Shown in pieces: positions 1 to 63,351 of a stretch of DNA of 64,000 nucleotides. The position numbers and the translations under genes are program-made. A model generated the notes under the pieces. That model did no database searches. It saw nothing but the letters and a program-made list of their open reading frames with translations, and was not told the origin of the DNA. This stretch comes from an uncultured Clostridia bacterium (GTDB lineage: Bacteria; Bacillota; Clostridia; Christensenellales; Borkfalkiaceae), in contig CALVIN010000003.1 of the NCBI GenBank assembly GCA_944330115.1, positions 1 through 64,000 of the forward strand, written 5' to 3'. Each line of letters starts with the position of its first letter. The stretch's first letter is position 1.

Positions 1-345
1 CGGTCACCGCTCGGGCGTGCATATGCCCTCGCTCATCTCACAATGCGCAAACAGCGCGTGTGTGCTGTTTGCAGAAGTGCATTGTTCGTCCCTCTTCGCG
101 CGACCTTAAGGGCCCACGAAGCGTATAGCCGCGCGAATTCACCCTGCTGCGCGAGCGAAGCGCTGCTCTGCCGAGGCTCCCGAAGGGAAACGGCAGATGC
201 GCAGGTATGCGCAAATGTGGGCCTGCGGCGGCGGGAAACCCGCCTTGCAACATTATTTGTTTTAGAATTTTTGCGCTTTGCAGGGTAAACCTGCTCGCGC
301 TTATCCGCTCAATTTGCCTGCCGACCAAAAGGCAATGCAAATATT
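1..345 (+). repeat. Dispersed structured repeat, modules C (1-90) and A (91-345)
   Basis: No convincing gene lies in the first 862 bases. Positions 1-90 match 57256-57340 (module C, a nested hairpin whose inner and outer stems differ between copies). Positions 91-345 are a module A copy that resembles 16766-17040 almost throughout. Hairpin 3 has stem TTCGCGCGAC (95-104) against GCCGCGCGAA (128-137) with a 23-nt loop carrying TTAAGGGCCCACGAAG, and hairpin 5 is GGCGGG-AAA-CCCGCC (230-244). Hairpins 1 and 2 are absent here, replaced by module C. A 100-residue frame on the minus strand reads through the copy, but the same peptide pattern recurs wherever the repeat lies, so it is not a gene. Confidence 0.85.
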
Positions 346-4164: not shown

Positions 4165-5520
4165 ATGACGGCAAAGGCAAACTTCGATTTTATTTACAAC
4201 CCCATAAAGGAGAAGATGCGCGAACTTATTTCGCACATAAACTACACCACCTTTATCGAAAAGCTGGTGCCGGTGGATATCGACGGGCGCTTTATCGTGC
4301 TTGAAGCCCCCTCCGAGGGCATAGCCAGCTACATAACCACCACCCTTGCCGAAAAGATGCGCGAGGCCATTTTAGAGGCCAACGTGGGCATCACCGACTT
4401 CCGCCTTAAGGTGGAGGGCTCGGACAAGTACGCCTATAACAGCCCCGAGGACGAGCTTAAAAACTTCAGCGCGCCCACCAACCTCGATCCCAAATACACC
4501 TTCGAGAGCTTTGTTGTGGGCCCCAACAACGAGTATGTGTTTGCCGCGGCGCAGTCGGTAGCCGAAGACCCCGCGGGCACCTACAACCCGCTGTTCATCT
4601 ACGGCGGCACGGGCCTGGGCAAGACGCACCTCATGCAGGCGATAGCCAACAAGATAGTGCGCGAAAAGCCCTATTTAAAGGTAATATACGTCACCTGCGA
4701 AAAGTTCGTAAACGAAATAATCGACAATATGTTCACCGGCCGCGGCGCCGACACGCGCGACAAGGGCAGCAAACTGAGGCAGCACTACCGCTCGGCCGAC
4801 GTGCTTATAGTTGACGACATACAGTTCATAGAGGGCAAAAAGGCCGTTCAGGAGGAATTTTTCCACACCTTCAACGAGCTTGTGGCAAAGGGCAAGCAGA
4901 TAATCATCTCCTCCGACCACTCGCCCAAGGAGCTGGCCGCGCTTGAAGAGAGGCTTAAAACGCGCTTTTCGGGCGGACTGCTGTTTGACATACTTCCCCC
5001 CGACTACGAGACAAAGGTGGCCATTTTAAAGCGCAAGGCCTTTGAAAAGAAGTGCATAGTGCCCGACGACGTTTTGAACTTTTTAGCAAAGGACAGCGGC
5101 GACGACGTGCGTACGCTTGAGGGCAGGCTCACAAAGGTGATATTCGCCTCCCGCCTGCACGAGGAGCCCATAACCGTGCAGCTTGCGCGCAACGCATTGA
5201 GCGAGGCCGTGCCCGAGGACGGCAACGAGGAGATAACGCCCGACACGGTGATAAACGCCGTGACAGGCTTTTACCACATAGAGCGCGCCGACATAACCGG
5301 CAAGAGCAAGAAAAAAGAGGTCGTCATTCCCCGCCAGATATGCTGCTATCTGATGTGCGAACTACTTTCACTCCCCCTCGTTTCGATAGGCAAGGAGCTG
5401 GGCGGCAGGGACCACACCACCATGCTGTATTCGCGCGACAAGGTCGAGGAGATGTGCCGCACCAACGACAGGATAGCCAAGGACGTCGACGACATAAAAA
5501 ATATAATACTCAAAAAATAA
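4165..5520 (+). CDS. dnaA: Chromosomal replication initiator DnaA
   Basis: The 451-residue AAA+ initiator binds DnaA boxes and opens oriC. The order is an N-terminal helicase-interaction domain (1-about 90), AAA+ domain with Walker A GGTGLGKTHL (about 148-157) and Walker B VLIVDDIQFIEG, sensor region, and a C-terminal helix-turn-helix with GKELGGRDHTTMLYS, which contacts DnaA boxes. The SD is poor: AAAGGA is 17 bases upstream. A hairpin terminator follows the gene, and mnmG comes next rather than dnaN. Its presence suggests that the origin is nearby, but no cluster of consensus boxes was found in the flanking spacers. Confidence 0.97.
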   Translation: MTAKANFDFIYNPIKEKMRELISHINYTTFIEKLVPVDIDGRFIVLEAPSEGIASYITTTLAEKMREAILEANVGITDFRLKVEGSDKYAYNSPEDELKNFSAPTNLDPKYTFESFVVGPNNEYVFAAAQSVAEDPAGTYNPLFIYGGTGLGKTHLMQAIANKIVREKPYLKVIYVTCEKFVNEIIDNMFTGRGADTRDKGSKLRQHYRSADVLIVDDIQFIEGKKAVQEEFFHTFNELVAKGKQIIISSDHSPKELAALEERLKTRFSGGLLFDILPPDYETKVAILKRKAFEKKCIVPDDVLNFLAKDSGDDVRTLEGRLTKVIFASRLHEEPITVQLARNALSEAVPEDGNEEITPDTVINAVTGFYHIERADITGKSKKKEVVIPRQICCYLMCELLSLPLVSIGKELGGRDHTTMLYSRDKVEEMCRTNDRIAKDVDDIKNIILKK

Positions 5521-5650
5521 TTTTTAATTAAATTAAATTAAATTAAAATCAAATTAAATTATTTTTTTAATTATTTATTTGCAATTTATTTTTAATATAT
5601 ATATTACAGAAATTCCCGCTTTACAAAAAATGGCGGGAATTTTTGCGAGG
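5521..5650 (+). terminator. A/T low-complexity tract and dnaA terminator
   Basis: Positions 5521-5605 are almost pure A/T with repeated TTAAA units. A hairpin with stem AATTCCCGC (5611-5619) and GCGGGAATT (5633-5641) followed by a T run forms a rho-independent terminator just ahead of mnmG. The A/T tract could also serve as a DNA-unwinding element, but no consensus DnaA boxes flank it. Confidence 0.75.
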
Positions 5651-9987: not shown

Positions 9988-10225
9988 ATAAATTAAAAAT
10001 TAAATTTTTTGATTTATTGTTTTTATATTTTTTTATCCACAATAAATTAAAAATTATATAATCAAATAAAAATATTAAAGGCAGCCGCGCGTGATTTGCG
10101 CGGCTGCCCTGTTTTAAAATTAAATAAAATTAAAAATAAAATATAAATTTTTAAACATTAAATAAAATTAAATTATTATTTAATTAAATTTATTTTTATT
10201 TTTTATGCGGGTATTTTTATAAAAA
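9988..10225. terminator. Convergent spacer: shared terminator and lone DnaA box
   Basis: The 238-base A/T-rich spacer separates convergent spoIIE and malQ. A perfect 11-bp stem GGCAGCCGCGC (10080-10090) with GCGCGGCTGCC (10098-10108), flanked by A-rich and T-rich runs, can stop transcription from both sides. A consensus DnaA box TTATCCACA lies at 10033-10041. It is the only intergenic consensus copy noticed in the window, so no origin is claimed. Confidence 0.7.
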
Positions 10226-15965: not shown

Positions 15966-16694
15966 TTAGTTGTTTGTATACATCTGCTTGTAGGGATTTG
16001 CAGAGTTGGGAGTGAGCACAAAGAAGTTGTGCTTTAACAGCTCCTCCGCGGAATATTCGGGGAAGAAGTTGCACCACTCCCTTACGAGCGCGCACAGCTC
16101 CTCGATATCCTCGCCCCACTTCTTTTCGGCCGCAACCTGCGTGGGAAGCGACTTGGGCAGCTCGTCGCAGCGCAGATACATCACGCCGCCGTGCATGCCG
16201 GTGCCGCAGAAGTTGTTTATTATGGGAAGGCCGTCCTTGTTCTGGCCGAGCACGACTATCACGCCGCCCGCCTGGTATTCGCCGAGGAAGGAGCCCGCCC
16301 TGCCGCCTATCACTATCGCGGGCTTGAAGTCCATATACGCCTTCATGTGTATGCCCGCGCGATAGCCGGTGTTGTCGCGGATATATATCCTGCCGCCGCG
16401 CATGGCATATCCCGTGGCGTCGCCCGCGCTGCCGTATACGACTATCTTGCCGCTGTTCATGGTGTCGCCCGTGGCCTCCTGCACGTTGCCGTGCACTATC
16501 ACCTCGCAGCCGTTCATGTACGCCCCGAGGGCGTTGCCGGGCACGCCGTTTATTACGATGCGCTTGCCCGAGAGGCCGTCGGCGATGTAACGCTGGCCTA
16601 CCACGCCGTTTAAAGTTATATCGGTATCCTTGCTTTCGCGCACTATTCTGTTGAGCTCCTGAAAGTGAACATTTTCGTCAACGTTGATTTCCAT
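15966..16694 (-). CDS. Glutamate synthase GXGXG (alpha-subunit C-terminal) domain protein
   Basis: The 242-residue protein is a stand-alone version of the GltB C-terminal beta-helix, with repeats such as LSGKRIVINGVPGNALGAY and GNVQEATGDTMNSGKIVVYG, and GGRAGSFLGEYQAGG. In large GOGATs this domain supports the ammonia tunnel and the FMN domain. Here it is a separate gene, as in archaeal-type split GOGAT. The start at 16694 has GGAG 8 bases upstream. The frame stays open upstream through a module A repeat, but that extension repeats elsewhere in the window and is not coding. It probably assembles with the products of 20863-22368 and 22365-23486. Confidence 0.88.
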   Translation of the reverse strand: MEINVDENVHFQELNRIVRESKDTDITLNGVVGQRYIADGLSGKRIVINGVPGNALGAYMNGCEVIVHGNVQEATGDTMNSGKIVVYGSAGDATGYAMRGGRIYIRDNTGYRAGIHMKAYMDFKPAIVIGGRAGSFLGEYQAGGVIVVLGQNKDGLPIINNFCGTGMHGGVMYLRCDELPKSLPTQVAAEKKWGEDIEELCALVREWCNFFPEYSAEELLKHNFFVLTPNSANPYKQMYTNN

Positions 16695-16708
16695 AAAAAA
16701 AACTCCGT

Positions 16709-17085
16709 TCACAAATTTTTTGCGCGGGCCGCGCGCAAAAAATTTCGTGATTTTGAGGGGCTCTGCCCCTCTTCGCGCGACCTTAAGGGCCCACGAAGCA
16801 TATAGTCGCGCGAATTCACCCCGGTGAGCCGCAAGTATGCGCAAATTGAGTCCTGCGGCGGCGGGAAACCCGCCTTGCGACGTTATTTGTTTTAGAATTT
16901 TTGCGCTTTGCAGGATAAACCTGCTCGCGCTTATCCGCTCAATTCGCCTGCCGTACAAAAGGCACTGCAAACAGGGGCGCGCTTGACGGCTGAAATAAAT
17001 TCAGCCTTGCGCACATTATTTGTCTTAAAAATTCAGACCGAATTTAGTACCTCCCCTTTGAGGGGAGGGTAGGGTGGGGTTTCAC
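16709..17085 (+). repeat. Module A repeat followed by a module B end
   Basis: This is one of the most complete copies. Hairpin 1 (16713-16745) has a 14-bp stem AAATTTTTTGCGCG and loop GGCCG. Hairpin 2 (16755-16771) is GAGGGGC-TCT-GCCCCTC, and hairpin 3 (16772-16814) has stem TTCGCGCGAC with a 23-nt loop. Hairpin 5 is GGCGGG-AAA-CCCGCC (16860-16874). A CCTCCCC palindrome follows at 17048-17070. It fills the spacer between the FAD oxidoreductase stop and the GXGXG gene start, with hairpin 1 only 18 bases before that start codon. Confidence 0.85.
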
Positions 17086-20635: not shown

Positions 20636-20851
20636 TTTTTGCGAGTAAGGTTCCCCTGTGTAAAATTCCAAATAAATATCCTGCGCAAGCAGGGTTCCCC
20701 TGCGCCAGCGCGACCCAATTTGTCGCGCAAGCGAGCTCACCAAGGTGAATTTGCGCGACTATACGCTCCGTGGGCCCTTAAGGTCGCGCGAAGAGGGGCA
20801 GCGCCCCTCAAAATCACGAAAAATATAACTCTCGGCCAGAGTTATATTTTT
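20636..20851 (-). repeat. Module A repeat
   Basis: This minus-oriented copy lies directly after the FMN synthase gene. Hairpin 1 (20819-20851) has a different 14-bp stem, AAAAATATAACTCT with AGAGTTATATTTTT, yet the same pentaloop (CGGCC on plus). Hairpin 2 is GAGGGGC-AGC-GCCCCTC (20793-20809). Hairpin 3 pairs TTTGCGCGAC (20750-20759) with GTCGCGCGAA (20783-20792) across 23 nt, including a G-T wobble. Hairpin 5 is GCAGGG/CCCTGC (20689-20703). Hairpin 1 with its T run is also a good terminator for the gene. Confidence 0.85.
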
Positions 20852-20862
20852 GTGAGCCCTTT

Positions 20863-22368
20863 TTACTCGCCTGCGTGTTTTATGCCGAGTATTCTCAGCT
20901 CCGTCTCATTGAGTCCCACGCCGCGCAGCATCAGCCTGTTGCCGCGGAGGGCCTCTATCGAGTTGATGCCCATGCCGCCCATCATCTCCTGTATTTCATG
21001 CGTCCATGCGTGCACGAGGTTTACCAGCCTCTGTTTGCCGATATCGGGATTGAGGCGCTTTACGAGGTCGGGGCGCTGGGTGGCTATGCCCCAGTTGCAC
21101 TTGCCCGCGTGGCAGCTGCGGCAGAGGTGACAGCCGAGGGCCATTACCGCCGCGGTGGCTATGTAGCAGGCGTCCGCGCCGAGCGCTATTGCCTTTACCA
21201 CGTCGGAACTCGAATGAATGGAGCCGCCCACCACTATCGAGACGCTGTCGCGTATGCCCTCCTGGCGGAGGCGCTCATCGACCTGCGCAAGGGCGAGCTC
21301 TATGGGGATGCCCACATTGTCGCGTATTCTTGTGGGAGCCGCGCCCGTGCCGCCGCGGTAGCCGTCTATAGCTATTATATCGGCGCCGCTTCTGGCAATG
21401 CCCGAGGCTATCGCCGCAACGTTGTGCACGGCGGCAACCTTTACTATTACGGGCTTGGTGTATGCGGTAGCCTCCTTTAAGCTGTATATCAGCTGGCGGA
21501 GGTCCTCTATCGAATAGATGTCGTGATGGGGCGCGGGAGAGATTGCATCGACGCCCTTGGGTATCATGCGCGTCTTTGAAACGTCGTCGGATATCTTCAT
21601 TCCGGGCAGATGCCCGCCTATGCCGGGCTTTGCGCCCTGGCCCATCTTTATCTCTATCGCGGCGGCCGTCATAAGATACTGCTCGTGCACGCCGAACCTG
21701 CCCGAGGCCACCTGCACTATGGTATTTTTGCCGTATTTATAAAAATCGGTGTGCAGGCCGCCCTCGCCGGTGTTGTAGTAAATGCCCAGCTCCTCGGCGG
21801 CGCGGGCGAGAGACTCGTGCGCGTTGTAGGAGATGGAGCCGTAGCTCATCGCCGAGAACATTATGGGCGTGGTGAGCTTGAGCTGCGGGGGAAGGGTGTC
21901 CTTCAGCCTGCCGCGGGCGTCCCTCTTTATCTCCACGTCCTTTTTGCCGAGATACACGGTGGTCTCCATGGGCTCGCGCAGGGGGTCGATGGGAGGGTTG
22001 GTGACCTGAGAGGCGTTGACCAAAATTTTATTGAAATATATGGGATTTTCGGTGGGGTTGCCCATGGAGGAGAGAAGAACGCCTCCCGTGGCAGCCTGCC
22101 TGTAAATCTCGTTCATGGCGCGCTGCGGCCAGTTGTAGTTGAGTTTGTAGGTATCGTCGCTCTTTACAATCTTTAAAGCATGCGTGGGGCAGAGGGCGAC
22201 GCAGCGGTGGCAGTTTACGCACTTGGTGCTGTCGGCGATCATCTTGCCGAGGTCTTTATCGTATTTATGAACTTCGTTGGCGCACTGCCTTTCGCATACC
22301 CTGCAGCCTATGCACAGCTCGGTGTTGCGCACCACCTCGTATTCCGGGGGAATAAACATGTCGATCAT
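20863..22368 (-). CDS. Glutamate synthase FMN-domain protein with N-terminal ferredoxin domain
   Basis: The 501-residue protein begins with two [4Fe-4S] motifs, CIGCRVCERQC (from residue 18) and CVNCHRCVALC, followed by the GltB central FMN/2-oxoglutarate domain. Visible motifs are FSAMSYGSIS, NTGEGGLH, GQGAKPGIGGHLPG, ISPAPHHDIYSIEDL, AIDGYRGGTGAAPT and a [3Fe-4S]-type cysteine set in GCHLCRSCHAGKC. It forms glutamate from 2-oxoglutarate and ammonia delivered by the glutaminase subunit. The ATG at 22368 has AAGGAG 7 bases upstream and overlaps the previous stop as ATGA, so the two are translationally coupled. Confidence 0.92.
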   Translation of the reverse strand: MIDMFIPPEYEVVRNTELCIGCRVCERQCANEVHKYDKDLGKMIADSTKCVNCHRCVALCPTHALKIVKSDDTYKLNYNWPQRAMNEIYRQAATGGVLLSSMGNPTENPIYFNKILVNASQVTNPPIDPLREPMETTVYLGKKDVEIKRDARGRLKDTLPPQLKLTTPIMFSAMSYGSISYNAHESLARAAEELGIYYNTGEGGLHTDFYKYGKNTIVQVASGRFGVHEQYLMTAAAIEIKMGQGAKPGIGGHLPGMKISDDVSKTRMIPKGVDAISPAPHHDIYSIEDLRQLIYSLKEATAYTKPVIVKVAAVHNVAAIASGIARSGADIIAIDGYRGGTGAAPTRIRDNVGIPIELALAQVDERLRQEGIRDSVSIVVGGSIHSSSDVVKAIALGADACYIATAAVMALGCHLCRSCHAGKCNWGIATQRPDLVKRLNPDIGKQRLVNLVHAWTHEIQEMMGGMGINSIEALRGNRLMLRGVGLNETELRILGIKHAGE

Positions 22369-23699: not shown

Positions 23700-24110
23700 T
23701 GCTAACGGCAATTTAGCAGGCTGAAGAGCGTTCGATAAATTTAATACAAAATATAAGCAGAAATTATAAATACACCCGAAAAGCGAGTGTAAAAGGCAGA
23801 GCGTGCCGCCCTCTATACGCGGTGAGAAGCCGCAGGCGATATGCAGCGGGCGAGGATAATTAAGAGCCGCCGTTGGCGGCAGTACGGCGGCATGAAACAT
23901 ATAAAAGCCGCCGAACTCATATGAGAGCCGCGGCCGGCGATAATATGGCGGAATTAAACATATAAGGGCCGCGGCGCGCAGAAAAATTCTGCGCGCCGCG
24001 GCCCGTCAAGCGGAAAATATTATTTAAAAATAATTTAAAATTTATTTTTTAATTTTTAATTTAATTTATTTTAATTTAAATTTAATTTTATTTTTTCCAT
24101 TGGCGGATGC
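23700..24110. repeat. Gene-free spacer with an 18-bp hairpin and duplicated motif
   Basis: No gene is supported here. The motif GGCGG-AT-AAACATATAA-GCCGC occurs twice (about 23893-23915 and 23946-23974). A perfect 18-bp stem (23966-23983 with 23987-24004, loop AAA, arm starting GGGCCGCGGCGCGC) is one of the strongest hairpins in the window and may end transcription from the ClC gene. An A/T-only tract follows (24018-24100). Confidence 0.6.
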
Positions 24111-24115
24111 GCCGT

Positions 24116-24235
24116 ATGAAACCCCTCCGTCTTTGCCTTGCGCTGCTTCGGCAAATCCACCTCCCATCAGAGGGGAGGTATAAAAGGGTGAGGAGCGTGC
24201 CACTTACTCGTCACACAAAGGGGGAGGTACCAATG
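24116..24235 (-). repeat. Module B repeat
   Basis: The copy reads AAACCCCTCCGTC, a TTTGCC...GGCAAA hairpin, a CCTCCCATCAGAGGGGAGG palindrome, then GGGGGAGGTACC. It lies right after the ClC channel stop codon. Confidence 0.75.
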
Positions 24236-30455: not shown

Positions 30456-30660
30456 GTTCACAAAAATGCCGCGCGGGCCGCGCGCGGCATTTTTCGTGAG
30501 GTTGAGGAACTAAGTTCCTCTGACGGCATTTTTAAGTGCCCTCGATTATAGAAATGCCGCCATTCACCTCCAGCGAGCTCGCTCGCGCGACAAATTGAGT
30601 CGCGCTGGCGCAGGGGAACCCTGCTTGCGCAAAGTATTTATTTAGAACTTTTGCGGCGCA
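30456..30660 (+). repeat. Module A repeat, variant stems
   Basis: Hairpin 1 (30462-30494) has a 14-bp stem AAAAATGCCGCGCG and loop GGCCG. Hairpin 2 (30504-30520) is GAGGAAC-TAA-GTTCCTC. Hairpin 3 uses CGGCATTT (30524-30531) with AAATGCCG (30552-30559), unrelated to the TTCGCGCGAC stem of other copies, yet its loop still reads TTAAGTGCCCTCGATTATA. Hairpin 5 is GCAGGG/CCCTGC. The copy ends 10 bases from the dinB stop. Confidence 0.85.
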
Positions 30661-33278: not shown

Positions 33279-34820
33279 ATGACAGAGAAAAACACGGCCG
33301 CACGCAAGGCGAGCATTGCCGCGATAGTACTTGCGGCGCTGTATGCGCTGGAATTTTTCGGCACGGGCATACTTATATTCAAAAATATGTATTACACCTT
33401 CCCCGCGATGCCCTACCTGCTCTCGGCCGTCGCGCCGGTGCCGCTCGCGCTCGCCATACTCAACTTTGTAAAATTCAAAAACCTGCGCATGAGCATAGCT
33501 TTGATATGCGCGGCGGTTGTTATGGCGATAGGGCACTTTTTGTTTGCGGCATATGTGCTGTCTAAACTGATATTCGTGCTTGTGGCGGGGCTGCCGGTAT
33601 ATATAATTTTAGGTATAACGGGGCTGTTTTTATACCTCGTTCTGGCATATCCCAGGCTCAACAAGCTTGGAAAGCGCATCTCGGTATGGGCGATAGGCAT
33701 CGCCATATTCTTCGTGAGCGTGTTCGGCATTTTAAAGCTGCGCATATTTTCCTTTACCTCCGACGGCGTGGTGTTTGCCGTTGAGGACGAATATCAGATA
33801 GCGTGGTCGACCTCAGTCCCCTCCACGGGCAGGGTTGAGATAGGCGGCAGCGTGTTCTATGACGAGGGCGCGGGCGAAAACGAGGTATCCACCCTGCACA
33901 AGATAAGCGTGCCCATGGCGCTTTTGGACGAGGCGAAGGAATATACCATAACCTCCGCACCCGTGTATTCGGAGGCGGCCTACCTTTCGGTGAGCGGCGG
34001 CGAGCGCAGCAGGAGCTATACCTTCCGCCCCGCGGACCCGAATGACGGGCTGCAGATATATAACATAAGCGACAACCACGAGTGCCTGAGCGGCGCGGGA
34101 CAAGCGGGGCAGTACTTCGGCGACGACCTCGACATACTCATTTTAAACGGCGACATTATAAACGACGTATCCACAGAGTGGCAGATATCCCTTATATACA
34201 AGCTGGCAAGCAGGATAACGGCGGGCACGCGCCCGGTGATTTTTGTGCGCGGCAACCACGAGTGCAACGGCAAATATGCCGCCGAACTTCCGCAGTATGT
34301 GGGCAGTTATAACGGCGAGCTTTATTACAACGTGCGGCTGGGCGGGGCGTATTTTATGGTGCTCGACACCAACAACGACATGGCTGACGACAACTTTTTG
34401 ATAACGCCCGCCGCCAATTTTGAAGAGCTGCGCGCGCGGCAGACTGAGTGGCTGAAAAATGTAACCGATTTCGGCGAAGACTGCGAATACAGAATACTGC
34501 TTGCGCACATGGCGTTTGCGCTTGCCGACTATGAGCGCTTCCCCGAGTGGCGCGACGAGCTTGTTGCCGCCACCGACGGCAAGTTTGACGTGTGCATAAG
34601 CGGACACTCGCACATTTTAGACTATGCCGAGGCGGGCACGGGCACGCGGACGAGCTGGCCGATAATACGCGGTTCGCTGCGCAGCAACAAACGCGAGAGC
34701 GGCGAGAGCGTGTGGCCCTATCACTTTACCGGCACGGCGATAGAATGCAAAGACGGCAAAATAACCGCATGGTTTACCAACAGCAACGGCGAAATTTTGC
34801 GCGAAATAAATGTGAAATAA
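33279..34820 (+). CDS. Membrane-anchored calcineurin-like metallophosphoesterase
   Basis: The 513-residue protein has about five hydrophobic segments in the first 155 residues, then an Ig-like domain resembling the N-terminal domain of purple acid phosphatases (AWSTSVPSTGRVEIGG), and a C-terminal phosphoesterase domain. Metal-binding blocks are YNISDNHE, LILNGDIINDV, VRGNHECNG, LLAHMAF and ISGHSHI. The first block has DNH in place of the usual DxH spacing. The catalytic domain is probably outside the cell. Substrate unknown. SD GAGGTGG precedes the ATG. Confidence 0.88.
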   Translation: MTEKNTAARKASIAAIVLAALYALEFFGTGILIFKNMYYTFPAMPYLLSAVAPVPLALAILNFVKFKNLRMSIALICAAVVMAIGHFLFAAYVLSKLIFVLVAGLPVYIILGITGLFLYLVLAYPRLNKLGKRISVWAIGIAIFFVSVFGILKLRIFSFTSDGVVFAVEDEYQIAWSTSVPSTGRVEIGGSVFYDEGAGENEVSTLHKISVPMALLDEAKEYTITSAPVYSEAAYLSVSGGERSRSYTFRPADPNDGLQIYNISDNHECLSGAGQAGQYFGDDLDILILNGDIINDVSTEWQISLIYKLASRITAGTRPVIFVRGNHECNGKYAAELPQYVGSYNGELYYNVRLGGAYFMVLDTNNDMADDNFLITPAANFEELRARQTEWLKNVTDFGEDCEYRILLAHMAFALADYERFPEWRDELVAATDGKFDVCISGHSHILDYAEAGTGTRTSWPIIRGSLRSNKRESGESVWPYHFTGTAIECKDGKITAWFTNSNGEILREINVK

Positions 34821-34872
34821 ATAATTTAATTTTTAATTATATTATATTTTTTAATTTAATAATCCGGCAAAC

Positions 34873-34903
34873 AAAAAACCGCGCAGAAAATGCGCGGTTT
34901 TTT
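34873..34903. terminator. Bidirectional terminator between the phosphoesterase gene and aroA
   Basis: A perfect 13-bp stem AAAAAACCGCGCA/TGCGCGGTTTTTT with a 5-base loop lies between convergent genes. A/T low-complexity tracts flank it on both sides. Confidence 0.88.
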
Positions 34904-34974
34904 ACTATCATTTTTTAATTTAATTTAATTTAATTCAATAATTATTTATTTTATTTTTTATTATTTATTTTAAT

Positions 34975-36279
34975 TTAAGTAATTTGCCTTATAAGATCGT
35001 CGAGGACGGTGAAATATTCGCGGAAGGTCTTTGCGCACACCTCGGCGTCATTTATAACTATTCCCTCCGCGCGCAGGCCGGTTATTGCAAAGCTCATGGC
35101 AACGCGATGATCGCCGAAGGTTTGCAGCTCTGCGGGGCGGGGCGTGCCCGGGAAAATTACAACGCCGCTGCCCTCCTCCCTGCACTCTATGCCCATAGCC
35201 GAGAGGTTGCAAATAATTGCCGCTATCCTGTCGCACTCCTGCCCGCGGATGTGTTCGATGCCGCATATGTGCGTGGGTTTTGAAAAGTAGGGCGCGATCG
35301 CCGCCATGGTGAGCGCCTGGTCGGAAAAGGCCGACATATCCACCTCGCCGCCGTCGAAGCCGCTTTTCATGAGTTCGATGAAGCGCATGTCGCCCTGCAT
35401 GGAATGAGGCATTATGCCCTTTACCTTTATATCGGTGCCGAGTATTCTGTTCATGGCATAGAAGTAGCAGGCTGCGGAGACATCGGGCTCGATATCGTAT
35501 TTGCGCGCCGAATATGTGCCGTCCACAATGTATACGTCGCCCCTTTGAGCGCCCACACGGTAATTATTCCCGAACGAAAGTATAGTCTGCCCGTTCTCCC
35601 CGCGCTCGTCGGCGAGCTGAGCCCATTCCTCGACAGGACCCGCGCCAAACGACCACATTATATCCGCCGTCATATCCACATATTCCATGCCGTGGTTGCC
35701 TGAAGCATTCACGCGCACGCCGCCGGCTGCACACACGCCCGCCATTAAAATGGCAGACATAAACTGACTGCTCTTGGTGATATCAACGGTGATATCCTTT
35801 GCAGGGGTGGAAGTGCCGTAAATTTTAAACGGGAAGCAATTTTTCCGCTCCAAAAACTCGAAATATACGCCCGCCTTTTCGAGCGCCGAAATCAAATCGC
35901 CCATGGGGCGCTTTTTCATCTGCTCGGAGGAGGTGACGGTGAACTCGCCCTCGGAAAAGCCCAAAAGGGCGGTGATAAAGCGCGCCGCCGTGCCCGCGCT
36001 GCCCACATACACCTCGCCGCTCTTTACCGGAAGTTTCCCACCGCATCCTTCGACCGTGACGGTGGTGCCGTCGCGAAAAATTTTGATGCCTAAACTTTTG
36101 AGGCAGTCGATAAAGGTGAGGCAATCGTCAGAGAGCCCCGCGCCGTACAGCGTGGACGTACCGTTTGCAAGCGCCGCGATAAAGAGGGCGCGCGCCGTTA
36201 TGCTCTTGGAGCCGGGAACGCTGACCAAAGCGCTCTTATTTTTTATTTTATTGTAAATACAGGGTACGGAAAAATTCAT
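34975..36279 (-). CDS. aroA: 5-enolpyruvylshikimate-3-phosphate synthase
   Basis: The 434-residue enzyme transfers enolpyruvate from PEP to shikimate-3-phosphate on the way to chorismate. Visible blocks are PGSKSITARALFIAALANG, YVGSAGTAARFITA (the usual GNAGTAxR is changed to GSAGTAAR), the SSQFMSAILMAG region, and the C-terminal HIRGQECDRIAAI with DHRVAMSFAI. The SD is weak. It follows trhP by 120 bases on the same strand. In E. coli and Bacillus, TrhP-type hydroxylation of tRNA needs prephenate, which derives from chorismate, so the linkage may be functional. Confidence 0.95.
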   Translation of the reverse strand: MNFSVPCIYNKIKNKSALVSVPGSKSITARALFIAALANGTSTLYGAGLSDDCLTFIDCLKSLGIKIFRDGTTVTVEGCGGKLPVKSGEVYVGSAGTAARFITALLGFSEGEFTVTSSEQMKKRPMGDLISALEKAGVYFEFLERKNCFPFKIYGTSTPAKDITVDITKSSQFMSAILMAGVCAAGGVRVNASGNHGMEYVDMTADIMWSFGAGPVEEWAQLADERGENGQTILSFGNNYRVGAQRGDVYIVDGTYSARKYDIEPDVSAACYFYAMNRILGTDIKVKGIMPHSMQGDMRFIELMKSGFDGGEVDMSAFSDQALTMAAIAPYFSKPTHICGIEHIRGQECDRIAAIICNLSAMGIECREEGSGVVIFPGTPRPAELQTFGDHRVAMSFAITGLRAEGIVINDAEVCAKTFREYFTVLDDLIRQIT

Positions 36280-40478: not shown

Positions 40479-40954
40479 AACAAGGCCCGCGGCAGTTGCG
40501 TATGATTATTTCCCGGGCTTGTGCGCCCGCAAGATGATCTGCGGGCATTAAAAAATAAAATTAAAAATAAAATTTAAAAACAACACCTGATTTTTGCAAT
40601 TTCCGATAAATTGCAGCAATTAAAAAATAATTTATTTTTTTGATTTTAAATAAAAAATATTGTATTTTTAATTGAGGGCGCCGCAAATTTTAAGGCGCCG
40701 CGCCGCCTTTTTGCCGTATTTGCGCAAAATATCGCAATATTTTGCGCAAATACGCCCGTTACCGAAGATATACAAAACCGTGCCGTATGATTTTTAATTG
40801 ATTTTTTTAAAGCAATTTCAAATTGAAATAAATAATTTTAAATTAAATTAAAATTAAATAAAATGCCGATGAAATCAAAACAAATCAAATAAAATTCAAA
40901 TAAAAGGGGTCGATAAAAAAACTATCAACCCCCCGATCCGTAAAATGTTTTATT
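40479..40954. terminator. Gene-free spacer with strong hairpins
   Basis: A perfect 17-bp stem (40716-40732 with 40737-40753, loop CGCA, arm GTATTTGCGCAAAATAT) is the main feature. GGCGCC pairs with itself at about 40678-40700. A GGGGTCGATA/TATCAACCCC hairpin with one mismatch (about 40906-40932) ends transcription of the 710-residue protein gene on the minus strand. The remainder is A/T low-complexity sequence. Confidence 0.75.
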
Positions 40955-50286: not shown

Positions 50287-51090
50287 GCACAAAATGTGTA
50301 GCTCATATGACCTTTTCCGCGCAAAAAGAGCAGTTTGCATGCGGTAATTTATTTGCTCTTTTGATGCGCGGTTACGGAGCCGCCGCAGGCAATTGCCTGC
50401 GGCGGCATTTTTATGCAGTGGTTTTGCGCATGCGCAGTTTTTTTTGTTGAGTATTTTTTATTTTTTCAATATTTATTTTCTGCCCGAAATATTTGATATT
50501 TTTTGCCAAATTTTTAATATTTTTTAATTATTTATTTAATTGCGCGCGGGCGCATTTAAATAGGCATATAAAATAAAAAAATGCGCCGCCTTTTTTGCCG
50601 GACGGCGCATATGTTGCAAAAATAATATCTGAATCAAAGCAGAATTTTACGCCCCTTGCCATTGCAGAGGGAGTGGCGGGCGCTGCCTGCACGGCGGCGC
50701 ATATATCCTTAAAAATTACGGCAAAAATCTTGCCGAAAATTGTCGAAAAGGCGCGGATATGTGCGCAAAAATATGGCCTTTTAAACACATCACTCCGCGA
50801 TAAAGTGAGCGGCGGCGCACATTGGATCGCATGAAAAATAAGGCATATGTGTTAAATTTAATATGTTTTTTATTTTGCATTTTACACATATGCCGCATAT
50901 TTAATTTATATTTAATTTAAATTATATACATATGCGGCGCATTTAGATTGATTTATTTTACGTTAAGCACATATGTTTTACGCGCCACCTCACCCCTCCG
51001 CCGCGCCCGCGCATATGCCTTTGAACGCACATTGTATTATTTTTTATTTTTTGATATTTTTTGCAGAAAAATAATTGCAATTTTTTGCAG
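50287..51090. terminator. Gene-free spacer with exporter-operon terminator
   Basis: No gene is convincing in these 800 bases. A perfect 28-base palindrome (50379-50406, GCCGCCGCAGGCAA and its complement) followed by ATTTTTA ends the exporter operon. A GAGC...GCTC hairpin lies at the stop codon. Several copies of CATATG-containing short palindromes and A/T low-complexity tracts fill the rest. Overlapping frames of 79 and 86 residues on opposite strands at 50528-50834 have no SD or known similarity. Confidence 0.7.
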
Positions 51091-51092
51091 GT

Positions 51093-51340
51093 GAAACCCC
51101 ACCCTACCCTCCCCTCGAAGGGGAGGTAAGCCGAAGGCGAAGAGGGGTTATTCTAAAATAACTTATGTCGCAAGCAGGGTTTCCCTGCGCAGCAGGACTC
51201 AATTTGCGCATACCTGCGCCTCAGCAGGGTGAATTCGCGCGACTATACTCTTCGGGGGCCCTTAAGGTCGCGCGAAGAGGGGCAGCGCCCCTCAAAATCA
51301 CGAAATTTTTTGCGCGCGGCCCGCGCAAAAAATTTGTGAA
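51093..51340 (-). repeat. Module A repeat followed by module B palindrome
   Basis: Hairpin 1 (51303-51335) has the same 14-bp stem as the copy at 16713. Hairpin 2 is GAGGGGC-AGC-GCCCCTC (51277-51293). Hairpin 3 pairs TTCGCGCGAC (51234-51243) with GTCGCGCGAA (51267-51276) over a 23-nt loop. Hairpin 5 is GCAGGG-TTT-CCCTGC (51174-51188). A CCTCCCC palindrome lies at about 51108-51127. It begins 10 bases after the SpoIVA-like stop codon on the minus strand, so hairpin 1 doubles as a terminator. Confidence 0.85.
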
Positions 51341-51344
51341 TCCC

Positions 51345-52493
51345 TTACAGTATTATACAAATCACCCCGCCCTTGCCTTCGTTGGTCATGCGGGTGATGG
51401 CCTTTTTCAACTTATTCTTTGTGTCGTCCTGAATGGAGTTTACCTTTGCGGCCAGCCCCTCCTTTACCATGCTCTTTAACGAGCGGCCGAACACATCGGT
51501 GTTCCACGTCGCCTCGGGGTCGGTTTCAAAGCCCTTCATCATGCCCGTAACGAGGCTCTGGCTCTGAGCGCCCTCGCCCATTATGGGGCTCACTTCGCCA
51601 GCGACGTCCACCCTTATTATGTGGTACGAAGGCGCCGAGGCGCGCAGGCGTATGCCCACCGAGTTGCCCTGCTTTACCACCTCGGGCTGCTCGTATATAA
51701 GGTCATCTTCGGCGGGCGAAACTATGCCGTAGCCGTTTACTCGGGCGCAATTTAGCGCATCGCGCACCTTTTCAAAGCTATTTTTCGCCTCGGCGGCGGA
51801 GCGGACGTAGCGCATCAGCGAATACTCCCCCTCTATCTTGTCGCCGGCGATCTCGGAGAGCATTGAAAAGAATATGCCGTCCTGCGCGGCGCACTTTATT
51901 TTTGCGCCGCCCGTGGCGAAGTCGTACTCCACCTCTATCGCGGGCGACCAATACTCCGCGCCCGCGCACAGCCCGTCGAGCGCCGAAATATCCTTGAATT
52001 TTTTGATATTTGCGCACCTTTCGCGCACGCGCGAGATGAGTTCGGATATGGCCGAACTTTCGGCGGGCAAAAAGCCCATCCACTCGGGTATATCCACCCC
52101 CACCGTGCGCACGGCAAATTCGCCCGAGAGCGCGCGCAGCAGCATATTGAGCGCAGACCTATCCCACGTTTGCGGGCGCAGACACTCGCACCCGTACGTA
52201 TTTTTAAGCTCCTCGGCGTTGGGGGCGACTATGATAAACGGCCTGCCCGCCGCGGCCTCGGCATAATTTATATCGCCCGCTGCGGCCCCTTCGCCGCCGC
52301 TTACGTCGCCCTCCGCGTTCGCGCCGCCATAGCCCGCGGCAAATATAACGGCGCCGCCCTTTGAAAGGTCGTCGCAAAAATCAAGTCCTCCCTCCGCCTT
52401 TAGCGCGGCGAGAAGTTCACCGTCGCCGCAGACGGCCACGGCCTTTCCGTTGAGCCGCGCCGCAAGTCCTGCACAAATATCGCTATCGAGCAT
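51345..52493 (-). CDS. SpoIVA-like spore coat protein lacking the ATPase P-loop
   Basis: The 382-residue protein matches the middle and C-terminal parts of stage IV sporulation protein A: VDIPEWM near 133, a helical middle domain, then LIYEQPEVVKQGN, GIRLRASAPSYHIIRVDV, FGRSLKSMVKEGL and the end MTNEGKGGVICIIL. Full SpoIVA is about 490 residues with an N-terminal TRAFAC-type ATPase used to polymerise the coat base. Here only about 120 residues precede the middle domain; VAVCGDGELLAAL stands where GxxxxGKST is expected, and most of the ATPase fold is missing. GRPFIIVAPNAEE keeps the late ATPase strand. SD GGAGG. A GTATACAAAA stretch upstream (52513-52522) loosely recalls a sigma-E -10. Confidence 0.85.
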   Translation of the reverse strand: MLDSDICAGLAARLNGKAVAVCGDGELLAALKAEGGLDFCDDLSKGGAVIFAAGYGGANAEGDVSGGEGAAAGDINYAEAAAGRPFIIVAPNAEELKNTYGCECLRPQTWDRSALNMLLRALSGEFAVRTVGVDIPEWMGFLPAESSAISELISRVRERCANIKKFKDISALDGLCAGAEYWSPAIEVEYDFATGGAKIKCAAQDGIFFSMLSEIAGDKIEGEYSLMRYVRSAAEAKNSFEKVRDALNCARVNGYGIVSPAEDDLIYEQPEVVKQGNSVGIRLRASAPSYHIIRVDVAGEVSPIMGEGAQSQSLVTGMMKGFETDPEATWNTDVFGRSLKSMVKEGLAAKVNSIQDDTKNKLKKAITRMTNEGKGGVICIIL

Positions 52494-54325: not shown

Positions 54326-54689
54326 ATAATAAAAAATTATTTCTAAAATAAATTATTTAATTTACGCGTGCGGGCGGGGCAAATTGCCCCGCCCGCACGC
54401 GTAAAACAACGCACCATGCGTTAAATAAAGGGTGAAATAACGGCGCTGGGCAAACTTTGTTTGCCCCGCGCCGTTAAATTCAAAAATAAATTAAAATAAA
54501 AATAATTAAATTAAATAATTACCCGCCCCTCGAAGGGCCGAGCTATTCTCTATATTTACCTCCCCTCGAAGAGGAGGTGTCACAAAGTGACGGAGGTGTT
54601 CCATTTTCAAGCCTGTGAAACCCCTCCGTCTTTGCCTCGCTCCGTTCGGCAAATCCACCTCCCCTCAAAGGGGAGGTACCAAATGCGGT
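54326..54689. repeat. Terminator-like hairpins and module B repeats
   Basis: A G/C hairpin (about 54365-54403, GCGTGCGGGCGGGGC with its complement) may end transcription of the membrane-protein gene. A second one with GGCGCGGGGCAAA lies at about 54442-54474. Module B follows: a palindrome at 54556-54580, AAACCCCTCCGTC (54617-54629), a TTTGCC...GGCAAA hairpin and a CCTCCCC palindrome with GGTACC (54658-54680). No gene is seen. Confidence 0.7.
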
Positions 54690-54722
54690 AAAAATTCCGC
54701 TCTGGCCGAGAGCGGAATTTTT
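54690..54722 (-). terminator. ATP-grasp gene terminator, hairpin 1 type
   Basis: A perfect 14-bp stem AAAAATTCCGCTCT/AGAGCGGAATTTTT with loop GGCCG has exactly the geometry of hairpin 1 in module A, but hairpins 2-5 are missing. It lies 10 bases after the stop codon. Confidence 0.85.
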
Positions 54723-54732
54723 GTAAACTGTT

Positions 54733-55926
54733 TTATATCTCCTTGGTTAAAAGCACATCTTTATAGAAGGCGTCCATCTCTTCCTTGGTTTTGAAGTTTG
54801 CAAGATACATGGTGTTGCCCATGGCGGCGGCGAGGGCGTCGGGTATCCTGCCCACCTCCTTTATGTTGGCGGCATACTTTGCCTCTATCTGCTCGCCGCT
54901 GTACATAAAGGGCTTGCCGTCGCGCCTGCCGGCGTATGCGCAATAGAATTTTTCGCCCGTGGGAACGAGGGTGCTGTCGTAGACGATCATGTCCGCCCAG
55001 ATCTTATAAACGTCGGTGGAGTTGGCGTAGTCCATCATGTCGGGCGAGAACCCGCCGCAGGGGCGCATGTTCACCTCGAGGGCTATAACGTCGCCCTTTT
55101 TGCCGAGGTACTGGTCCTTGGTGAGGCGGAAGAATTCGAAGTGCACGAACCTGCTCTTTACGCCGAAGGCCTTTACCGTGCGGCGGCCTGCGTCCCTTAC
55201 GTCGGGCGAAAGCTCGTTTACTATATAATAGATGCTGTTGCCGTTGGTGTTTACTATGTCCATTATCGACATGGGCGTTACGTTGCCCGTTTCAAATATG
55301 GGCTCGCCCTTGGAATTTATTATCGCGTCGTAGGAGTTGACCTCGGCCTCGACGAATTCCTCCATTATATACTCGACGGGCGGCTTTTCGTTGAGGAAGT
55401 TTTTGAGGTCGTCGTCGCAGGCGAGCTTCCACGTATCGTTTGCGCCCACGCCGTTATCGGGCTTTACTATTACGGGATAGCCGACCTTATCGATAAACTT
55501 TTTGCACTCGTCATAGCCCGTCACCATGCAGTAACGCGCGGTGACCACCCCCGCCTTTTTGTAATACTCCTTCATGCCCGACTTGAACTTTATGCGGGGC
55601 ATGTCGTCGTTTTTAAAGCCCGAGCACACGTTGAAATCGGTGCGCAGCTGCGCGTCGAGCTCCAGCCAATACTCGTTGTTGCTCTCGATGAAGTCGATCT
55701 TGCCGTATTTGAAGGCAAAGAGCGCCACGGCGCGGTAAACTTCGTCGTAGTTTTTGAGCGAATGTACCCAATAATACTCGGCAAGGCTGTCTTTGAGTTC
55801 GGGCGCGAGGTAGTCGTAGGGGCAGTCGCCTATGCCCAGCACGTCGAAGCCGTTGTTTTTGAGCTCACGGCAGAACTTCCAATAGTTTGTGGGGAAGTTG
55901 GGCGAGATGAATACAAAGTTTTTCAT
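54733..55926 (-). CDS. ATP-grasp ligase-like protein
   Basis: The 397-residue protein begins KNFVFISPNFPTNYWKFCRE and carries an ATP-grasp fold: GYPVIVKPDNGVGAND (ATP-binding strand and loop), YIMEEFVEAEVNSYDA, and IALEVNMRPCGGFSPDMM with the metal-binding Glu/Asn. Such enzymes join a carboxylate to an amine or thiol through an acyl phosphate. No partner carrier protein is seen, and the substrate is unknown. It is last in a minus-strand group with two esterase-like genes and a lipase-like gene. SD AGGGAGA. Confidence 0.85.
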   Translation of the reverse strand: MKNFVFISPNFPTNYWKFCRELKNNGFDVLGIGDCPYDYLAPELKDSLAEYYWVHSLKNYDEVYRAVALFAFKYGKIDFIESNNEYWLELDAQLRTDFNVCSGFKNDDMPRIKFKSGMKEYYKKAGVVTARYCMVTGYDECKKFIDKVGYPVIVKPDNGVGANDTWKLACDDDLKNFLNEKPPVEYIMEEFVEAEVNSYDAIINSKGEPIFETGNVTPMSIMDIVNTNGNSIYYIVNELSPDVRDAGRRTVKAFGVKSRFVHFEFFRLTKDQYLGKKGDVIALEVNMRPCGGFSPDMMDYANSTDVYKIWADMIVYDSTLVPTGEKFYCAYAGRRDGKPFMYSGEQIEAKYAANIKEVGRIPDALAAAMGNTMYLANFKTKEEMDAFYKDVLLTKEI

Positions 55927-56064: not shown

Positions 56065-56817
56065 TTAATATTCGAGCAGTTTGGGCAAAAAGTATGCCGC
56101 CTGCACGAACCACCAGTCCCAATCGTGGCGGCAGTCGCTGCCCCAGAAGTCCACCCAGGCGTTTATGCCCTTGCTCTTTAAAATTTCGGCAAATTTTGAG
56201 GTACTGTCGAGCGTTTCGTTCTCCCACGCGCCGCGGCCGACGCACAGCACTATCCTGCCCGAGTTGTACTTTTGGATATAGGGGTGGTCGACGGGCATGC
56301 CCGCTACGAACTGCTGGGGGGAGTTCATGTAGGTGAGGTCGTCGCTGTAGCCGCCCATGCAGTATTCGGTGGAATACACGCCGCTGAGAGCAAGGAGGCT
56401 GTCGAACACGTCGGGATAGCGGAAAAAGAGCGTTGCCGCGTGCAGCGCGCCCAAGCTGAGCCCCGCGACGAGGAAGCGTATCTCCCAGCCGTTGGCGCAG
56501 GTGTTTATGTGGGAGAAGTGCGGAATTGCCTCCTCCATTATATAGTTTATCCACGCCTCGTGGCGGCACATGCGCGCACGCGGATCGCCGTGGCCGACTA
56601 TCGTTTCGCTGTCGATACTGTCGATGGTGAACACCTGTATGCGGCCGTCCTCGATATAGGGGGCGTATACGTCGAGCATGTGCATGTCTTCGAACTCATA
56701 GAATCTGCCGCTCTGGCAGGGTATGACGAGCACAGGCTTGCCGCGCGTGCCGTAAATTTTGTACTCCATATCGCGTCCCAAGTGCCGCGAATAAAATTTT
56801 CCGTAATTTATTTGCAT
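56065..56817 (-). CDS. Esterase-like alpha/beta hydrolase
   Basis: The 250-residue protein reads MQINYGKFYSRHLGRDMEYK, then KPVLVIPCQSGRFYEFEDM, the nucleophile elbow LVAGLSLGALHAA (Ser in GLSLG), and the late histidine in CRHDWDWW. It belongs to the esterase D/putative esterase group. No signal peptide. SD GGAG. It lies 138 bases before the ATP-grasp gene, and its upstream spacer holds two module A repeats. Substrate unknown. Confidence 0.85.
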   Translation of the reverse strand: MQINYGKFYSRHLGRDMEYKIYGTRGKPVLVIPCQSGRFYEFEDMHMLDVYAPYIEDGRIQVFTIDSIDSETIVGHGDPRARMCRHEAWINYIMEEAIPHFSHINTCANGWEIRFLVAGLSLGALHAATLFFRYPDVFDSLLALSGVYSTEYCMGGYSDDLTYMNSPQQFVAGMPVDHPYIQKYNSGRIVLCVGRGAWENETLDSTSKFAEILKSKGINAWVDFWGSDCRHDWDWWFVQAAYFLPKLLEY

Positions 56818-56825
56818 AGTAAACT

Positions 56826-57118
56826 CCTCACGAAAATCTCGCGCGGGCCGCGCACGATATTTTCCGTGAATTTAAGAGGCTCTGCCTCTCTTCGCGCGAC
56901 CTTAAGGGCCCACGGAGCGTATAGTCGCGCGAATTCACTCCGCTCAGGCGCAGGTATGCGCAAATTGAGTCCTGCTGCGGCGGGAAACCCGCCTTGCGAC
57001 ATAAGTTATTTGGGAATACCCCTCCCGATTTGCCTTGCTCCGCTTCGGCAAATCTACCGCCCCTTCGAGGGGAGGTGGCGCATACGAACATAGTGAGTAT
57101 GTGACGGAGGGGTTTCAT
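56826..57118 (+). repeat. Module A plus module B repeat
   Basis: Hairpin 1 (56832-56864) keeps 14 pairs with two mismatches and loop GGCCG. Hairpin 2 is AGAGGC-TCT-GCCTCT (56875-56889). Hairpin 3 is TTCGCGCGAC (56891-56900) with GTCGCGCGAA (56924-56933), 23-nt loop. Hairpin 5 is GGCGGG-AAA-CCCGCC. Module B runs 57017-57118 with an ACCCCTCC...GGAGGGGT closing pair. Together it closely matches the layout at 91-552. It starts 9 bases before the esterase gene start. Confidence 0.85.
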
Positions 57119-57124
57119 TATTGT

Positions 57125-57566
57125 TCGCTTATATGAGCCTGTAAAACCCCACCCTACCCGTCTCGTGGTGCGTGCGGTGTATTACCGCATGGATCTGCCG
57201 TTTCCCGCAAGCGGGAACCCCTCGGCAGAGTGTCGTCGCATACGCTCCTCGCGCGGTCACTGCTCGGGCGTGCATATGCCCTCGCTCATCTCGCTCGGCA
57301 CGCACAGCGGGTGTCCGCTGTGCTATGAAATGCCTCGCTCGTCCCTCAAAGGAGAGGTACCACTGCGGCAAAAATTCTGAATAAATACTCTGCGCAAGCA
57401 GGGTTCCCCTGCGCCAGCGCGACTCAATTTGTCGCGCAAGCGAGCTCACTGGAGGTGAATGGCGGCATTTCTGATAATCGGGGGCCCTTATAAATGCCGC
57501 CAGAGGAACTTAGTTCCTCAAATTCAAGGAAAATATCGCGCACGGCCTGCGCGAGATTTTCGTGAA
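57125..57566 (-). repeat. Module B, C and A repeats in inverse orientation
   Basis: Module C (57256-57340) matches 1-90. Its inner stem CACAGCGG-GTGT-CCGCTGTG replaces CAAACAGC/GCTGTTTG of the first copy. Module A: hairpin 3 uses GGCGGCATTT (57461-57470) and AAATGCCGCC (57492-57501), hairpin 2 GAGGAAC-TTA-GTTCCTC (57503-57519), hairpin 1 57529-57561 with one mismatch and loop CGGCC. With 56826-57118 it forms an inverted pair that fills the 754-base spacer. Confidence 0.85.
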
Positions 57567-57571
57567 CCCTT

Positions 57572-58327
57572 TTACTCCCCTTCAAATCCCAAAGCGGGGA
57601 AAAATACGGGGAGCTGGCGCTGCCACGAGGCCTCGCAATGGGTGCCGTAGGGCACGATGCGAGAAGTTACGAACACGCCCTTTTCGATGAGGTCGGCGGC
57701 AACTTCGGCGAAGATGCGGCGCTGGCCGGCGTGGTTTTTGAACTCCTTGCTGCCGTAGTCCATATAAAGCTGCGTGGCCCTGCCGAACTTTGCCTTTGTT
57801 AAAAATTCGGGCGTGCCGCCTCCTATCCACAGGCTGGGCGAGAGAGCCGCCCCGCGCGAAAAATAGCGGTTGTATACGGCCAGCGCATACATGGTCATCA
57901 GCCCGCCCATCGAGCTGCCGCCTATCGCGGTATTTGCTCTATCTGGCAGGGTGCGGAAGTTTTCATCGATATACGGCTTGAACTCGCCCACGAGCCAGTC
58001 CATATACTTTTTGCCCCTGCCGCGTATCACAGCGCCGCCGAAGTTGAAGTTTATGGGGGAATACTCCGAGAGCCTGCCGTTGCCCTCGTGATCGCACTCC
58101 ACGGCGGCTATTATCAGCTTTGTGTTTGTGTAGTCGAGATATTCGCCTATGCCCCAGCTCTTGCCGTAGGTGGCGTCTTCATCGAAGAAGAGGTTGTGCC
58201 CGTCGAACATATACATGACGGGATAGCGGCGGTCCTCCTCGTTATAGCCGTTGGGCAGATACACATACGCCCTGCGCGTGCGCTCGCCCGTGAGCTTGGG
58301 GATGGTTATGTCCCATTTTATTACCAT
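57572..58327 (-). CDS. Putative esterase (esterase D/Fes-like alpha/beta hydrolase)
   Basis: The 251-residue protein has RRAYVYLPNGYNEEDRRYPVMYM, FDGHNLFFDE, the nucleophile elbow AIGGSSMGGLMTM and the catalytic histidine in YGTHCEASWQRQLP. The C-terminal HxxxxW pattern is typical of the esterase family that includes enterochelin esterases and acetyl-xylan esterases. No signal peptide, so it acts inside the cell. It lies 37 bases after the lipase-like gene. Substrate unknown. Confidence 0.87.
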   Translation of the reverse strand: MVIKWDITIPKLTGERTRRAYVYLPNGYNEEDRRYPVMYMFDGHNLFFDEDATYGKSWGIGEYLDYTNTKLIIAAVECDHEGNGRLSEYSPINFNFGGAVIRGRGKKYMDWLVGEFKPYIDENFRTLPDRANTAIGGSSMGGLMTMYALAVYNRYFSRGAALSPSLWIGGGTPEFLTKAKFGRATQLYMDYGSKEFKNHAGQRRIFAEVAADLIEKGVFVTSRIVPYGTHCEASWQRQLPVFFPALGFEGE

Positions 58328-63200: not shown

Positions 63201-63351
63201 AATGAAACCCCTCCGGGTTTCGCTGACGCTCAACCCACCTCCACTCGAAGGGGAGGTACTTTGGCGCTTACTCTCCCTCCACTCGAAGGGGAGGTACTTT
63301 GGCGCTTACTCTCCCTCCCGCTCAATGGGGAGGTGATTGGGCGCTTACTGC
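63201..63351 (-). repeat. Module B with three tandem 38-bp units
   Basis: AAACCCCTCC is followed by a hairpin GGGTT...AACCC that replaces the TTTGCC/GGCAAA stem of other copies. Then three units of exactly 38 bases start at 63238, 63276 and 63314, each with CCTCC..CTC.A.GGGGAGG and GGCGCTTACT. The stop codon of the MarR gene lies within the third unit. Confidence 0.8.

Follow-up and report, generated by a model that had tools for sequence, protein, structure and literature searches.

A Dispersed Intergenic Repeat of Five Hairpins in a Genus of Clostridia That May Be Maintained as Folded DNA

Introduction

REP palindromes reportedly measure 20-40 bp and carry GTAG or CGTC tags. REP, BIME, and REPIN elements with TnpA-REP (RAYT) serve as the nearest working analogy for the intergenic repeat described here, although, of the two features that define them, the repeat lacks the tag and this genome lacks the transposase. 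The systems are alike in being high-copy intergenic palindromes that occur singly, in clusters, in inverted pairs, and as mosaics (PMC8266576, PMC6006769). For REPs of the perfect-palindrome type, the same sources describe a loop that is read and a stem that must pair (PMC8266576, PMC6006769), with loop bases read and cleavage lowered by stem mismatches (PMC8266576). Unlike a REP, our element is ~198 nt long and has five hairpins (H1-H5), and the stretch 5' of H1, the one hairpin scanned for tags, contains GTAG in 3 and CGTC in 1 of 144 copies. It further differs in that no Y1 transposase was matched in the genome under study (G000) or in its relatives G005, G013, G015, G029, and G034, one being present in the copy-rich G027.

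BOX, ERIC, RUP, and Correia-type mini-elements are dispersed, foldable intergenic elements of 100-200 nt with sub-modules. Compared by description, the repeat is like them in its dispersal, foldability, and sub-modules and unlike them in that its stems are replaced while its linkers are kept, in its abutment to gene edges, and in its restriction to one genus among the genomes searched. Integron attC sites are folded single-strand DNA sites, conserved in structure and free in sequence, that lie just after stop codons. Our element shares the conserved structure, the free sequence, and the site after stop codons; unlike attC, it lies about equally often 5' of start codons, in both orientations, and at many unlinked places. 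Here, we analyze this repeat, module A, starting from a window of 64,000 nt (the whole stretch of DNA analyzed) from an uncultured Clostridia bacterium. With guarded confidence, we favor reading module A as a genus-specific DNA element, five hairpins joined by conserved unpaired linkers, that became dispersed by spreading as folded DNA.

Architecture of the Element

Module A is a ~198-nt intergenic repeat whose units follow a fixed order from the gene-proximal end: H1 (TTCAC..GTGA), H2, H3, the linker TTCAC, H4, the linker AAATTG, H5, and an AT-rich tail that terminates near TTTAGAA. The window contains six full copies and one partial copy, which are listed here with the hairpins of one full copy and a solitary hairpin.

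90..268, plus strand: partial copy from H3 (95-137) onward, broken by another repeat, with H1 and H2 replaced
16708..16897, plus strand: full copy comprising H1-H5 and the AT-rich tail, on the 5' side of gene 15966-16694 (minus strand) and 14 nt from its predicted start codon
16708..16750, plus strand: H1 of this copy, a hairpin bounded by TTCAC..GTGA and, judged from its sequence, the gene-proximal end
16755..16771, plus strand: H2, GAGGGGC/GCCCCTC
16772..16814, plus strand: H3, TTCGCGCGAC/GTCGCGCGAA with the loop TTAAGGGCCC, followed by the TTCAC linker
16830..16842, plus strand: H4, a small predicted hairpin with a GCA..TGC core (pairs counted), followed by the AAATTG linker
16860..16874, plus strand: H5, GGCGGG/CCCGCC
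20662..20856, minus strand: full copy, H3 at 20750-20792, gene 20863-22368 (minus strand) ending with its stop codon 7 nt from H1
30457..30651, plus strand: full copy, H3 at 30524-30559 with GGCATTT-type stems, no gene edge close to the H1 side (213 nt)
51150..51340, minus strand: full copy, H3 at 51234-51276, gene 51345-52493 (minus strand) ending with its stop codon 5 nt from H1
54690..54722, no strand assigned: H1-like hairpin standing alone, with the stop codon of gene 54733-55926 (minus strand) 11 nt away
56827..57017, plus strand: full copy, left half of an inverted pair, H3 at 56891-56933, H1 ~10 nt from the ATG of ORF 56065-56817 (minus strand), or 58 nt if the later start picked by the gene finder (56769) is used
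57371..57566, minus strand: full copy first flagged, right half of the inverted pair, H3 at 57461-57501 with GGCGGCATTT stems, gene 57572-58327 (minus strand) ending with its stop codon 5 nt from H1

The seven copies of H3 reported in the first-pass annotation are all present where it had placed them, and the sequence confirms that their stems can be unrelated (TTCGCGCGAC in some copies and GGCGGCATTT in others) and that H2 and H5 switch stems in the same manner. The pairing it described for the H3 arms is perfect in five of the seven copies, whereas those at 95-137 and 20750-20792 each contain one mismatch, in the 3' arm (GCCGCGCGAA) and the 5' arm (TTTGCGCGAC), respectively. The loop quoted as TAAGGGCCC for the copy at 30524-30559 in fact reads TAAGTGCCCTCGATTAT (in the longer stretch, TAAGTGCCC).

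Covariation of the Stems

The conserved loops and changing stems had been proposed to reflect a functional folded molecule, and a larger alignment upholds this proposal: pairing is held by massive compensatory change, far above that in shuffled controls. Alignment A1 consists of 40 of 62 extracted copies (17 from the own genome and 23 from relatives, L047 among those included and near-identical own copies omitted) and was scored at 40 pairs in five helices. Paired cells make up 93.7% of 1,585 compared with 73.0% in shuffles, both sides have changed in 37 of the 40 base pairs compared with 24.1, and 303 cells are doubly changed and compensated compared with 85.3, a count that none of 500 shuffles reached. 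Controls with a slid register paired in 46.0% of cells at most, and in H3 the paired fraction is 99.7%. Copy L074, in which H1 is misaligned, was retained in this count and excluded from the covariance model, the RNase P comparison, and the model-fitted and identity counts. Among the 135 copies in which H3 could be scored, there are 46 distinct H3 stems, and 123 of the 135 stems have no mismatch over 9 bp. Most likely, foldability and not the sequence of the stems is under selection.

RNA or DNA

Given that covariation alone cannot separate RNA from DNA, wobble pairs were used as the discriminator. We counted them without an alignment, the register being set by Watson-Crick pairs only, in 144 distinct copies (the 62 extracted copies and 91 of 109 model matches, with duplicates removed), of which 9 were unscorable for H3, 15 for H2, and 4 for H1. 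H3, scored in 135 of the 144 copies, contains 1,202 Watson-Crick, 4 G-T, 5 A-C, and 4 other pairs; H2 contains 745 Watson-Crick, 2 G-T, 11 A-C, and 16 other pairs; and H1 contains 1,605 Watson-Crick, 39 G-T, 43 A-C, and 273 other pairs, the last number probably being inflated by bulges. H2 and H3 together have 6 G-T among 1,953 Watson-Crick and G-T pairs (1,947 Watson-Crick), which differs from the 4.0% of the stricter set of terminator-like hairpins described below with a Fisher p of 4.5e-13. Over H1, H2, and H3 together, 45 G-T compare with 59 A-C pairs (p = 0.20), and neither strand is therefore favored.

The RNA control was RNase P of the same genus, 26 sequences from as many genomes (a 27th match was truncated and omitted), put through the same aligner and folded with RNAalifold. 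Its G-U pairs account for 9.1% of standard pairs (6.6% at covarying pairs) and its A-C pairs for 0.6%, whereas the element analyzed by the same route (39 rows) has 1.03% G-U and 1.87% A-C (15 and 29 pairs, respectively). Terminator-like hairpins in the same sequences have 6.1% G-U in a set of 124 that contained at least one element hairpin, or 4.0% in a set of 75 built more strictly. Minimum-energy folds of the first ~118 nt of the element (H1-H3) give 3.1% and 4.1% G-U on the two strands, below the 13.1% of shuffled sequences and the 10.5% of folded RNase P. One result is contrary: in the model-fitted alignment of 109 matches, G-U pairs outnumber A-C pairs (61 to 31), G-U still amounting to 1.9%, and an alignment fitted in this way may be biased toward G-U.

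These counts bear on the reading of the first-pass annotation, which took the molecule to be an RNA. A multi-hairpin RNA of ~200 nt, or a UTR element whose structure acts within the mRNA, would be consistent with the strong covariation, with the excess of G-U over A-C in the model-fitted alignment, and with the frequent position of H1 just after stop codons or 5' of ribosome-binding sites, where transcription is expected; moreover, an element acting as RNA from one strand at some sites and from the other strand elsewhere would likewise disfavor wobble pairs. Yet G-U is almost absent relative to the RNase P and terminators of the genus, the unfitted counts show no excess of G-T over A-C, copies occur in both orientations relative to genes, and no Rfam model matches at its gathering score anywhere in the window, so that we consider an RNA unlikely. 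The near-absence of wobble pairs points to palindromes maintained as DNA, and the RNA reading is not supported.

Replacement of Stems and Conservation of Linkers

The H3 loop had been described as conserved on non-homologous stems, and this description holds for a short core: in 40 copies from the own genome, a typed pattern for the core is matched exactly in 25 and nearly in 14 and is absent in 1, and the core persists across at least three stem classes of that genome. It does not extend to the whole loop, which is barely more conserved than the arms (identity of 0.69 vs. 0.66 in the own genome and 0.61 vs. 0.62 in other species, from 39 aligned copies). When all rows of the 39 copies are considered, the most conserved stretches are the unpaired linkers TTCAC (0.95) and AAATTG (0.84); the H4 region is level with the linkers in other species (0.86) and has an identity of 0.55 in the own genome.

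Mosaic copies occur at orthologous or paralogous places. At one gene start shared by three genomes, H1 is constant and H2-H4 are different in one genome; three copies within one genome have H1, H5, and the H3 loop core in common but not all of their H2 and H3 stems; and in the gap near 16.7 kb the relative G029 carries a copy at the matching position whose H1, H2, and H3 stems are different. Transition-like changes make up 0.44 of base-pair changes in the element compared with 0.59 in RNase P, and arm swaps (A-T to T-A, G-C to C-G) make up 34% of differing pairs compared with 19%, a low transition share and an abundance of swaps being what block replacement would give.

Such replacement could also arise by template switching during DNA replication, a described mechanism (PMC8794818) in which one arm is copied onto the other; the stems would then need no function, and recombination would spread the copies. 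Stems that change in blocks with few intermediates and the high share of arm swaps are in keeping with this explanation, which we nevertheless regard as improbable: the inverted loops expected as its by-product are absent, H3 loops having the same orientation in 135 of 135 copies, the linkers remain conserved, and dispersal and gene-edge placement would go unexplained. Because template switching should also invert loops, exchange between copies of a DNA element is the simpler account of the mosaics.

Placement at Gene Edges

Distances to gene edges were determined for 40 own copies and 91 model matches with a purpose-made gene finder trained on the window. In the own copies, the median distance to the edge of a coding sequence is 9 nt from the H1 end (n = 40) and 413 nt from the H5 end (n = 39); in copies on named contigs, the medians are 23 nt (n = 87) and 294 nt (n = 74), and H1 is the nearer end in 60 of 70. 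H1 lies at most 9 nt from a stop codon in 45 of the 131 copies (one overlaps by 4) and 7-27 nt before a start in 33, and in 53 neither a predicted stop nor a predicted start edge is within 30 nt. This pile-up of H1 ends at predicted gene edges exceeds chance, with 65 of 109 copies having H1 within 30 nt of an edge as opposed to a mean of 15.8 and a maximum of 23 over 200 trials of random placement in the same gaps. None of 36 copies of a control repeat (CCTCCCC..GGGGAGG) is located within this distance.

On the H1 side, the nearest gene presents its stop codon to the element in 23 of the 40 copies from the own genome and in 43 of the 87 at named loci, and its start codon in 17 of 40 and 44 of 87, respectively. 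Stops and starts are thus faced about equally, and placement therefore seems to be independent of the direction of transcription. That the cluster is a transcription terminator or mRNA 3'-end stabilizer selected site by site, a role as terminators having reportedly been found for hairpin clusters, is the least probable explanation, given that the stop-facing copies and a TTTT at most 9 nt after H1 in 52 of the 127 copies with an H1 end found (of 144) are countered by the start-facing copies, by a five-T run after H1 in only 9 of 127, and by terminator-like hairpins (by eye) farther off at some filled sites.

In two start-side copies (L021 and L027), the last bases of H1, GTGAGG, are found at the expected ribosome-binding site of the next gene, and from this sequence match the element itself may supply that site. 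Solitary H1-like hairpins without H2-H5 are located beside stop codons in the window (54690-54722) and in L096 (10561-10616), which suggests that H1 outlasts the loss of the remaining element.

Distribution in the Genus and Order

Module A is a high-copy element in its own genome (1.77 Mb in 15 contigs). BLAST searches with two copies as queries returned 75 and 39 matches, totals that include partial matches and reverse self-matches of H1, and a covariance model built on 39 copies matched at least 52 (all 52 scored candidates passed). Within the genus, 34 of the 37 genomes gave a match to the model; among the other genera of the order, 0 of 24 did. An exact pattern identified at least 107 stretches in a public genome collection; because part of H4 is fixed in this pattern, that H4 sequence is overrepresented among loci L132-L211. 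Among the 80 loci listed, nearly all from MAGs, the labels are Clostridia, Clostridiales, Eubacteriales, or Candidatus Coproplasma (five named species), and the host genus is probably Candidatus Coproplasma. Neither a viral collection searched with one pattern nor plasmid and phage collections searched with one copy produced a match, and none of the open-licence papers listed in literature searches dealt with repeats in this genus. Tandem copies with a period of ~190 nt occur, as do inverted pairs with H1 outward, of which the own genome has at least five.

Mobility and Candidate Enzymes

The occupation of syntenic gaps is species specific. In the stretch syntenic between the window and G029 (from ~position 950, so that the partial copy at 90-268 lies outside it and was omitted), each has five gaps occupied by six copies, and of the nine gaps occupied in all, one is common to both; a second gap in G029 holds a solitary H1. 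At one site, the empty allele reads AAAAAATAA followed by TTTTT and the filled allele AAAAAATAG followed by TTCACG, with the junction at the stop codon. The element is probably mobile. Of the features that mark a MITE of a DDE insertion sequence, we observed by eye one possible AT-rich target-site duplication, no firm one, and no terminal inverted repeat. Measured against the direction of most genes, the copies prefer neither strand (34 vs. 38, 19 being ambiguous, and 14 vs. 14, 12 being ambiguous), whereas single-strand transposons that use the lagging strand should show a bias.

In the own genome (assembly rated 95.6% complete), there is no match to Y1, Y2, reverse transcriptase, TnpB, IS110, or DDE_Tnp_1. 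G005, G013, G015, G027, G029, and G034 are all copy-rich. Y1_Tnp is matched in 11 of 41 genomes, once in G027 and also in several copy-poor genomes, and its absence from G000 and from the five other genomes named in the Introduction led us to reject mobilization by a RAYT/IS200 enzyme. Retro-mobilization was likewise rejected: reverse transcriptases occur in 13 of 37 genomes, two in G013 and none in G000, G005, G015, G027, G029, or G034. TnpB has matches in 4 of 37 genomes, all below the cut-off, DDE_Tnp_1 in 2 of 37 (1 above the cut-off), IS110 in 1 of 37, and Y2 in 1 of 37, the Y2 negative being weak because the search matched 0 of 14 control genomes. We also clustered 590 predicted proteins encoded beside copies; no transposase was recognized by eye among the clusters listed (at most 25, those present in four or more loci, judged on their first members).

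Proposed Mechanism and Significance

Under the favored reading of module A as a dispersed DNA element, we infer its movement, a protein that reads it, and the cause of its pile-up at gene edges as follows. The element would spread as folded DNA, either extruded or single-stranded, and a protein would read the linkers and loop cores and need the stems only to be paired. Because pairing alone would be needed, stems could drift freely as complementary pairs while the linkers stay. Recombination or gene conversion would shuffle sets of stems between copies, and insertion or retention would be favored just outside the minimal gene, immediately downstream of the stop codon or immediately upstream of the ribosome-binding site. 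As a more tentative extension, module A might represent a new kind of mobile DNA, a folded five-hairpin array with free stems that is recognized by its linkers and loops and inserted at gene edges by an enzyme that is not one of the known single-strand transposases.

Our analysis suggests that covariation, which is usually read as a sign of functional RNA, can arise from DNA, and that counts of wobble and A-C pairs, with RNAs of the same genomes as a control, can distinguish the two. With a nearly exact abutment on stop codons and ribosome-binding sites and none of the six mobility-enzyme families searched in the genome, what drives such repeats becomes a concrete and searchable question.

Other Repeats in the Same Intergenic Regions

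A second, smaller family of palindromic repeats, CCTCCCC..GGGGAGG, often with AACCCCTCCGTC, is found in the same intergenic regions as module A and forms close tandem copies near 755-867 and 63232-63341. A ~94-nt repeat (CGGTCACYGCTCGGGCGTGCATATGCCCTCGCTCATCTC...) is present at 1-94 and 57254-57347 of the window, and a relative of it replaces H1 and H2 in L022. A CTGCCG..CGGCAG-type repeat is nested in the H4 part of L020 and within H1 of L044. The window, which has ~55% G+C, also contains intergenic runs of nearly pure A/T composed of AATTAAATT words.

481-867, 24147-24185, 51087-51134, 54538-54684, 57044-57114, 63224-63341: CCTCCCC..GGGGAGG repeats
5505-5593, 10113-10210, 24013-24101, 34814-34976, 40821-40906: runs of nearly pure A/T
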